NCBI RefSeq assembly: GCF_020622065.1
Contig: NZ_JAHRYQ010000001.1
Coordinates: forward strand, 1,612,001 to 1,676,000
Direction of reading: 5' to 3'
From: Geothrix sp.
Lineage (GTDB): Bacteria > Acidobacteriota > Holophagae > Holophagales > Holophagaceae
Length of the DNA stretch: 64,000 nt
Shown: in pieces, positions 2,533-8,211 of the stretch
Position numbering within the stretch: the first letter of the stretch is position 1
Layout of the letters: every line of letters starts with the position of its first letter
The notes under the pieces: generated by a model
Seen by the model: only the letters and a program-made list of their open reading frames with translations
Told to the model about the DNA's origin: nothing
Database searches by the model: none
Made by a program: the position numbers and the translations under genes

Positions 2533-3543
2533 ATGGGTTCCATCGCCCTCAACGGCCTGGGCCGCATCGGCCGGCTGCTGGTCCGCCTGCTGGGCACCAC
2601 CCGACCCGGGCTCCTGGGCGCTGTGAACGACCCGGCCCCGCTGGACCAGCTCGTGCACCTGCTCCGGTACGACTCGGTGCATGGGCCCAGCCATCGCCCC
2701 ATCGACGGGTTCACCGAGGGCGGACAGGACTTCCTCCTCCTGGGGGACCGGCGCCTGCCCCTCTTCCATGCCACGGATCCCGGCAGCATTCCCTTCCCTT
2801 CCGCAACCCGCCTGGTGGTGGAGGCCAGCGGCCGCTTCACCCGCCGGGAGGAGGCCGCCCGGCATCTGAAGGGGGCGGTATCCCATGTGGTGATCAGCGC
2901 GCCCAGCCCGGATGCGGACTACACCGTCATCGCCCCGGTGAACGGCTCAGGACTGGATCTGGCGCGCCACCGCATCGTCTCCAACGCCAGCTGCACCGCC
3001 CACGCGACGGCGCCCATGCTGAAGATCCTGGAAGATGCCTTCGGCCTGGAGCACGCGGGAATGAGCACCGTGCATGTGGTCACCAACGACCAGCGCCTGC
3101 TGGACCTGCCCCACAAGGACCGGCGGCGAGCCCGGGCGGCCTTCCAGAGCATCATCCCCACCACCTCGAGCGCCTTCGGCGCCCTGCACCGCGCCATGCC
3201 GGACCTGCCTCCGGCCTTCGATGGCGTGGCCCTGCGCGTGCCCCTCCTCAGTGTGAATCTGGTGGATGTGGTGGCCACCCTCCGCCGGGATGCCGAGGTC
3301 GCGGGAATCCGGGCCGCCTATGCCGCCGCCATCGCGGGCCCCTGGAAGGGTCTCGTGGCCCTGGCCGATCCGCACACGGTCAGCTGCGACATCACGGGCC
3401 GGACGGAAAGCGTGATCATGGATCTGGACCTGACCATGATGCTCGGACCCCGCTTCGTGAAGGTCTTCGGGTGGCACGACAACGAAACCGGCTACGCCGC
3501 CCGGCTCCGCGACCTGGTGGTGGACCTGGCGGCCAGGATCTAG
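2533..3543 (+). CDS. Divergent GAPDH-family dehydrogenase (second tandem copy)
   Basis: 336 residues, collinear with the preceding gap product: ALNGLGRIGR, VNDPAP, SNASC with catalytic Cys154 and STVHVVTND with His181. Several positions nearly invariant in GAPDH differ. ECTG has become EASG, CTTNC has become CTAHA so the second Cys is lost, and the phosphate-site TGAAKA is replaced by SSAFGA after an SIIPT segment. The acylating Cys and general-base His remain, so dehydrogenase chemistry is plausible, but substrate recognition is probably altered. An erythrose-4-phosphate dehydrogenase-like activity is one possibility; a specialised or gluconeogenic isozyme is another. Three nt separate it from gap, consistent with local duplication and divergence. 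Confidence 0.85.
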   Translation: MGSIALNGLGRIGRLLVRLLGTTRPGLLGAVNDPAPLDQLVHLLRYDSVHGPSHRPIDGFTEGGQDFLLLGDRRLPLFHATDPGSIPFPSATRLVVEASGRFTRREEAARHLKGAVSHVVISAPSPDADYTVIAPVNGSGLDLARHRIVSNASCTAHATAPMLKILEDAFGLEHAGMSTVHVVTNDQRLLDLPHKDRRRARAAFQSIIPTTSSAFGALHRAMPDLPPAFDGVALRVPLLSVNLVDVVATLRRDAEVAGIRAAYAAAIAGPWKGLVALADPHTVSCDITGRTESVIMDLDLTMMLGPRFVKVFGWHDNETGYAARLRDLVVDLAARI

Positions 3544-7065: not shown

Positions 7066-8211
7066 ATGTCCGACATCGGCTTTTCCACCCTCCACCCCGC
7101 CCAGCTCCGCCGCTTCGGGCGCGTGTTCTACCCCGCGGGGCTCCGGCTGCAGAAGGCCCTCTCGGCCCATGTCAGCCAGGATGGGAACCCGGATCAGCTC
7201 GTGATCCTGGAGCACGATCCCGTCTTCACGCTGGGTCGCAACGCCACGCCCGCCGACATCCACATGAGCGATGACTTCCTGGCCGCCCAGGGCGTGAGCG
7301 TCCACCGCACGGACCGGGGCGGCGAGGTCACTTACCACGGGCCCGGACAGATCGTGGCCTATCCCATCTGCAACCTGCGGGGCGGCCGCGAGGATGTGGG
7401 TCGCCTGGTCCGGGGCCTGGAGGAGGCCATGATCCGCACCGCCGCGGATTACGGCGTGGTGGCCGATCGCCTGAAGGGCGCACCGGGCATCTGGGTGGAC
7501 ACCGCCCGATATCGCACCGGAGGCGGCCTGGAGAAGCTGGGCGCCATCGGCCTGCACCTCAGCCGGTGGATCACCACCCACGGCATCGCCTTCAATGTGC
7601 GCCCCAACCTCGACCACTTCCGCTGGATCACGCCCTGCGGCTTCACGGACAAGGGTGTCTGCAGCCTCGCTTCCCTGCTGGGCGAGGCCGCGCCCACCCT
7701 GGAAGCGGCCACGGACCGGCTCCAGGCTCACCTGACTAGCTGCCTGGCTCTGGATCTCCAGCCCGTTCGGGAGCCCAGCCGCAGCGTTTCGGCCCTGACC
7801 TGGCGCCGGGGCCCCGCAGGTCCCGAAGTGCTCATGATGCTCCGGGTGCCTGAGCATGGCCTCTGGTGGCAGAGCGTGACCGGCATGATGGAGCCGGGGG
7901 AAACGCCGGAAGAAACCGCCCATCGGGAACTGATGGAAGAGACGGGCCTCTCCGGCACCCTGCGGCCGCTGGGCCTTTCCCACAGCTTCTGGGTGGATCC
8001 CGCCATCGTGCGATTCCCCGATGCCGAACCGCGCTTCAACACCGAGATCTGCTTCTCCATGGAGGTGGCCCCGGAGGCCCCGGTCCGCCTGGAGCCGCTG
8101 GAGCACAGTGAATGCAAATGGTGCGGCCTGAAGGAGGCCCATGACCTGATGAAGTGGGAAGGTTCCAAGGCGGCGTTGAAGCTGCTGGAGACCTGGCTTG
8201 CCCAAGCCTGA
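7066..8211 (+). CDS. lipB: Octanoyltransferase LipB fused to a C-terminal Nudix hydrolase
   Basis: 381 residues in two domains. Residues 1-230 are LipB, which moves octanoyl from acyl-ACP to lipoyl domains: the RGGEVTYHGPGQIVAYP signature, Lys157 in LEKLGAIGLHLSR and catalytic Cys191 in ITPCGFTDKGVCSL. Residues about 240-381 are a Nudix fold with a perfect Nudix box at 273-295 (G-x5-E-x7-REL-x-EE-x-G-L). This half resembles dihydroneopterin triphosphate or nucleotide pyrophosphohydrolases. Nothing in the sequence shows what the Nudix part acts on. Both active sites look intact and there is no internal start or frameshift, so I read it as a real fusion. Confidence 0.93.
   Translation: MSDIGFSTLHPAQLRRFGRVFYPAGLRLQKALSAHVSQDGNPDQLVILEHDPVFTLGRNATPADIHMSDDFLAAQGVSVHRTDRGGEVTYHGPGQIVAYPICNLRGGREDVGRLVRGLEEAMIRTAADYGVVADRLKGAPGIWVDTARYRTGGGLEKLGAIGLHLSRWITTHGIAFNVRPNLDHFRWITPCGFTDKGVCSLASLLGEAAPTLEAATDRLQAHLTSCLALDLQPVREPSRSVSALTWRRGPAGPEVLMMLRVPEHGLWWQSVTGMMEPGETPEETAHRELMEETGLSGTLRPLGLSHSFWVDPAIVRFPDAEPRFNTEICFSMEVAPEAPVRLEPLEHSECKWCGLKEAHDLMKWEGSKAALKLLETWLAQA

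Follow-up and report, generated by a model that had tools for sequence, protein, structure and literature searches.

In the genome of a Geothrix species we find a single gene that joins the octanoyltransferase LipB to a Nudix domain of the NudB-like type, and we conclude that this fusion is a real, conserved and apparently undescribed architecture that brings together two known enzyme types. Judged by its sequence, the protein pairs an enzyme of lipoic-acid attachment with an enzyme that most resembles one from folate synthesis, a combination that is unusual yet conserved. The gene lies in the 64,000-nucleotide stretch of contig NZ_JAHRYQ010000001.1 that we analyzed (hereafter, the window), with the following layout:

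7066..8211, + strand: LipB-Nudix fusion gene, a single open reading frame of 381 aa with an ATG start and a TGA stop
7066..7761, + strand: LipB (octanoyl-ACP:protein N-octanoyltransferase) domain, residues 1-232, placed by Pfam, NCBIfam and fold
7534..7536, + strand: AAG codon of the catalytic Lys157 of the LipB half, invariant in a 17-row alignment
7636..7638, + strand: TGC codon of the catalytic Cys191 of the LipB half, invariant in the same 17-row alignment
7762..7776, + strand: very short linker, residues 233-237, between strand 229-232 and the next strand, 238-248, of the AlphaFold2 model
7777..8208, + strand: NudB-like Nudix domain, residues 238-381, placed by Pfam, NCBIfam and the PDB profile match
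7882..7950, + strand: Nudix box GX5EX7REUXEEXGU, residues 273-295, read from the sequence

Both domains score well over the Pfam cut-off (LplA-B_cat, residues 25-223, E = 2.7e-40; NUDIX, residues 247-368, E = 4.3e-18), and an AlphaFold2 model of the fusion, built from a 30-row alignment of the window protein with proteins from related loci, reached a pLDDT of 91.5 and a pTM of 0.89. In this model LipB closes with a strand that runs to residue 232, and the Nudix domain opens with a strand from residue 238, which suggests that there is hardly any linker. A first-pass annotation of this DNA had described one frame encoding LipB and then a Nudix domain with a perfect Nudix box, and both descriptions are borne out. 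It had also named translational separation of the halves as an outcome that would count against it; a complete Nudix product made separately from an internal start is unlikely, because around the junction no in-frame start codon occurs before residue 255, which falls within the Nudix domain and past strand 238-248. The protein is most likely bifunctional.

By equivalog score, catalytic pair and fold, the LipB half is an ordinary LipB. The window protein scored 167 bits with the NCBIfam LipB model PRK14345 (cut-off 155) and 140.4 bits with TIGR00214 (LipB; cut-off 83.55), and residues 10-232 of the model matched the LipB structure 2qhs (Z 27.1, rmsd 2.2, 209 aligned). The octanoyltransferase had earlier been called intact on account of Lys157 and Cys191, correctly so: both are invariant over 17 family-spanning sequences, and the Lys motif and the Cys motif are each present in all 21 fused representatives. 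The fusion is the sole LipB match in the window genome, where a genome search returned no second match to the protein. The same genome carries two lipA (lipoyl synthase) genes (C2:40651-41502 and C2:1156965-1157819), both above the family cut-off.

The Nudix half, by profile and tree, resembles E. coli NudB far more than it resembles other Nudix types. Its best NCBIfam Nudix model is PRK09438 (dihydroneopterin triphosphate (DHNTP) diphosphatase; 64.1 bits, with the next Nudix model at 20.9), and each of the 17 proteins in the family-spanning set is matched by this NudB model, which is also the top-scoring one for the first protein of the set. The PRK09438 score of the window protein (64.1-67.7 bits) and the best score among the LipB fusions surveyed (79.9) both lie below the curated equivalog cut-off of 103 bits, which none of these fusions reaches, and we therefore term the domain NudB-like rather than NudB. 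When the Nudix profile was compared with the PDB, E. coli NudB ranked at the top (79.5 bits), followed by a hypothetical Nudix protein of Listeria (66.5 bits) and human Ap4A hydrolase (53.8 bits). By fold, NudB and Ap4A hydrolase are tied: residues 237-377 of the model aligned with E. coli NudB 5u7e at Z 19.3 (rmsd 2.0, 135 aligned) and with the Ap4A hydrolase 1ktg at Z 19.2. The motifs W[QS][SP][VI]TG and EHxxxxW, both also found in E. coli NudB, occur in 21 out of 21 fused representatives, as does the catalytic REXXEE; across the 17 family-spanning sequences, the catalytic residues of the Nudix domain do not vary. The canonical Nudix box is present in 17 of the 21 representatives; three proteins have a two-residue insertion inside it (L028, L112, and L115) and one has a single substitution (L022). 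We considered whether the box drifts where a second NudB-like domain is available, as two genomes with an additional NudB-FolP protein (G051 and G063) have the insertion, an idea that is weakened by a genome with the insertion and no NudB-FolP match (G267). Signatures of other Nudix types were looked for in the 21 fused proteins and found in none: PKG[HR] before the box, which we take to be the Ap4A-hydrolase signature; LLTxR[SA], presumably the motif of CoA pyrophosphatases of the NudL/NUDT7 type; and SQPWPF, by our assumption the motif of the NADH pyrophosphatase NudC. The SQPWPF motif is present in another Nudix protein of the window genome (L123), in which the family search gave no further match to the NudB model.

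Among the matches listed, a nearly full-length fusion occurs in at least 38 of 297 Acidobacteriota genomes, a number to which very divergent fusions might add, and 217 of the 297 have some match to the fusion protein. By family, these listed fusions fall in 26 of 27 Holophagaceae genomes, the family to which the window belongs (in the remaining one, G292, the match is a fragment where a contig ends), five genomes each in families f25 and f32, and a single genome each in f40 and f77. All 38 fusion genomes recur in the NudB family search with a NudB-model match of at least 54 bits inside the fusion frame, a score seen in just 42 of the 297 genomes. In a collection of named genomes, 46 out of 79 loci have a Nudix box in the LipB frame, all from Geothrix, Holophagaceae or "Acidobacteria bacterium" entries (closest named match: a Geothrix MAG, 98% identity), and the remaining 33, from other groups, are LipB alone; one locus of the collection, L073, ends at its contig end. 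Retention of the box in the same frame in 46 loci excludes a chance co-occurrence of the two domains. A Tannerellaceae protein with a match up to residue 329 (L081) proved to be LipB alone. Neither the 33 LipBs from other groups nor 54 plasmid records, none of which covers 80% of the query, include a fusion, although neither set amounts to a systematic survey. The fusion had been suspected to be non-standard, and the LipBs that we examined outside the fused set are indeed LipB alone. A survey of LipB homologs had been suggested, with occurrence in a single genome as one outcome that would refute the idea; carried out within the Acidobacteriota, it instead recovered the fusion in five families.

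Purifying selection acts on each half of the protein, and the catalytic residues are retained: in 10 pairwise comparisons with Geothrix and other Holophagaceae-type relatives, dN/dS was 0.09-0.15 for the LipB half and 0.01-0.17 for the Nudix half. In the Nudix tree, the 21 fused Nudix halves make up one side of a branch (support 93/89). The group that encloses them (92/95) also takes in E. coli NudB, along with three free Nudix proteins and the Nudix domains of three NudB-FolP fusions. The unconstrained LipB tree places the fused LipB halves in four groups that are not united, and a single clade of these halves was not rejected (AU test, p = 0.198). The simplest history is one old fusion in the Acidobacteriota that was retained in several families, which the Nudix tree favors and does not prove.

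The NudB-FolP proteins in this group are found in three Acidobacteriota genomes, where FolP (dihydropteroate synthase) carries a NudB-like Nudix domain at its N-terminal end: G219 (L134:4963-6315), G051 (L136:4746-6089), and G063 (L133), with the domains confirmed by Pfam for G219 and G051. Since a kindred Nudix domain is joined to FolP in the same phylum, this Nudix type appears to be tied to folate, although caution is called for, as two of these genomes, G051 and G063, have the LipB-NudB fusion in addition to NudB-FolP. The gene neighborhood of the fusion shows a lipoylation context in two families. In f25, lipA directly follows the fusion in five out of five genomes (in L029 and L110 the two genes share 4 bp), and the motif of E2 (lipoyl acyltransferase) lies upstream in four out of five loci examined; the fifth, L030, includes just some 1.5 kb of upstream sequence, and the motif is present in the longer locus from that genome (L225). 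In f40, genes for E2 and E3 lie upstream of the fusion. In Holophagaceae, f32 and f77, a search of stretches around the fusion detected neither lipA nor an E2 motif. Linkage to folate genes is loose, was noticed after the fact, and is weak: FolK lies 13-22 kb from the fusion in four out of five f25 genomes, FolP lies 7.6 kb away in G087, and NudB-FolP lies 21 kb away in G063, whereas FolP is about 320 kb from the fusion in the window genome. Elsewhere in the window, two tandem genes (1486-2529 and 2533-3543) resemble, by eye, glyceraldehyde-3-phosphate dehydrogenase paralogues.

The folate background was surveyed in 21 genomes, 18 with the LipB fusion and three with other NudB types. FolP and FolE were found in all 21 (FolE above the cut-off in six) and FolK in 20, with none detected in G174, which still has the fusion. 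FolB was present in G174 only and was not found in the other 20 genomes examined. All 21 genomes have PTPS-family proteins, and each has one with ExxHGH, the signature given for PTPS-III (PMC5041015). PTPS-III replaces FolB and is described as acting directly on DHNTP (PMC4674097). With FolB gone and a PTPS-III that may start from DHNTP, a DHNTP diphosphatase is possibly superfluous, which counts against a simple folate role: if the PTPS protein takes the triphosphate, this enzyme is not needed for folate, and if it takes the monophosphate, the NudB-like half would supply it. In Holophagaceae the protein with ExxHGH belongs to a divergent subfamily (46 bits to Pfam PTPS) and occurs in addition to an ordinary QueD; the PTPS-family proteins of the window genome are at C2:910376-910696 (L226:4362-4712), which is the ExxHGH protein, and C1:252413-252748 (L205). 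In f25 the ExxHGH motif is of the EPLHGH type. A third, degenerate PTPS-like protein without HGH occurs in six out of six Holophagaceae genomes examined (C1:422909-423046 in the window genome (L227); L240, L242, L244, L246, and L248 in the others). On C2 of the window genome, folK adjoins genes that by eye are queF- and queC-like (L229:4317-5982), linking the pterin and queuosine branches.

We propose that the fusion protein is a two-headed housekeeping enzyme, in which LipB is combined with a NudB-type pyrophosphohydrolase predicted to act on DHNTP. We assign this reading a probability of about one half, mainly because the PTPS-III background cuts both ways. The LipB half would move octanoyl groups from ACP onto the lysines of lipoyl domains, and the Nudix half would serve the pterin branch of the folate pathway by splitting DHNTP into PPi and the monophosphate, each half having its own substrate, with no channelling assumed. 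We infer both DHNTP as the substrate and a physiological coupling of the halves. Their common theme may be one-carbon metabolism, because the glycine cleavage system needs both lipoylated H protein and tetrahydrofolate. A bolder version of this idea, which we consider doubtful, is that the fusion physically links the supply of both cofactors on which glycine cleavage depends, through lipoyl-H protein and through pterin flux to tetrahydrofolate, with the Nudix half either feeding dihydroneopterin monophosphate to the PTPS protein that replaces FolB or draining DHNTP that is shared with queuosine synthesis. In E. coli, deletion of nudB or of a glycine-cleavage gene is reported to raise sensitivity to sulfamethoxazole (PMC5843663). 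By analogy, these data make a pairing of lipoate and folate plausible and give a reason to look for such a link, while not being evidence on the fusion protein itself.

Other roles for the Nudix half have to be weighed against DHNTP hydrolysis. It may be NudB-like by descent and now work on ApnA, dATP or oxidised nucleotides as a general clean-up enzyme unconnected with folate, which we consider unlikely. The tie between Ap4A hydrolases and NudB by fold fits such a role, as do the second-tier rank of Ap4A hydrolases by profile, the possible bypass of the DHNTP diphosphatase step by PTPS-III-type proteins, the separate NudB-FolP in two fusion genomes, and a clan-wide tree that places NudB among the ApnA hydrolases (PMC5389931). 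Against it, the NudB profile is ahead of all others by wide margins, the Ap4A signature is missing from all 21 fused proteins, and the nearest Nudix domains are those fused to FolP. A stricter folate role, in which dihydroneopterin monophosphate from the Nudix half is the true substrate of the ExxHGH protein and hence a required step of a FolB-less route, would fit the absence of FolB from 20 of the 21 genomes and the presence of an ExxHGH protein in all 21, as well as the suggestion that the monophosphate may be the substrate of some PTPS-III enzymes of archaea (PMC5041015). Most of the 297 Acidobacteriota genomes lack a strong NudB-like match, however, and the ExxHGH protein of Holophagaceae is divergent; we find this version improbable.

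The first-pass annotation had suggested that the Nudix domain could clear a nucleotide inhibitor such as a lipoyl-AMP-like or CoA-type compound, or simply be co-expressed. In the former case the Nudix half would serve lipoylation, for example by removing octanoyl- or lipoyl-AMP or a CoA compound. The lipoylation genes next to the fusion in f25 and f40 suit this suggestion, but the LipB reaction, with ACP as the octanoyl donor, needs no acyl-adenylate, the CoA-type motif is absent from all 21 fused proteins, and the kin of the Nudix half are NudB and NudB-FolP; we regard such a role as very improbable. Even less probable in our view is a non-catalytic or structural role for this half: the two-residue box insertion in three proteins might be read in this way, but the catalytic REXXEE in every fused representative and the purifying selection on this half argue against it. 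What stands of the original reading is a real, non-standard and recurrent fusion; the clean-up of CoA compounds or acyl-AMP is not supported, and DHNTP, one of the substrates that had been listed for assay, is the leading candidate.

We found no paper on a LipB-Nudix fusion in the open-licence literature. A 2007 survey of folate synthesis, which notes that the DHNTP diphosphatase gene was still missing from most bacterial genomes, mentions neither lipoate nor LipB in its main text as available to us (PMC1971073), and the available portion of the Nudix clan review likewise mentions neither (PMC5389931). As the LipB half exceeds its NCBIfam cut-off and the Nudix half falls below its own, NCBIfam models would name only LipB and leave unnamed a NudB-like domain that lies behind it in at least 38 of 297 Acidobacteriota genomes. 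This raises the question of why a NudB-like domain is kept in genomes that lack FolB and encode a PTPS-III-type protein. Acidobacteriota are a phylum of soil and groundwater bacteria. If the link to glycine cleavage were true, its FolB-less members would have a cofactor enzyme that serves two pathways, together with a hitherto unassigned step of folate synthesis.

Among known systems, the fusion shares with LipB (PRK14345/TIGR00214; structures 2qhs and 1w66) the whole catalytic domain, the Lys/Cys pair and the fold, and differs from the stand-alone LipBs examined outside the fused set by the Nudix domain added in frame. NudB/FolQ (PRK09438; 2o1c and 5u7e) is the nearest Nudix family by profile and tree, with WQxVTG and EHxxxxW common to both, whereas the Nudix half of the fusion is only 27% identical to NudB 5u7e in the structure alignment, lies under the equivalog cut-off, and is joined to LipB. 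The NudB-FolP proteins, also from Acidobacteriota, are likewise fusions with this Nudix type, but their partner is dihydropteroate synthase and their Nudix domain is N-terminal. Bifunctional enzymes of the folate branch, such as FolKP described in Rickettsia (PMC4674097), also place cofactor-pathway enzymes in one chain; enzymes of this type join steps within one pathway, whereas the LipB-Nudix fusion would join two.
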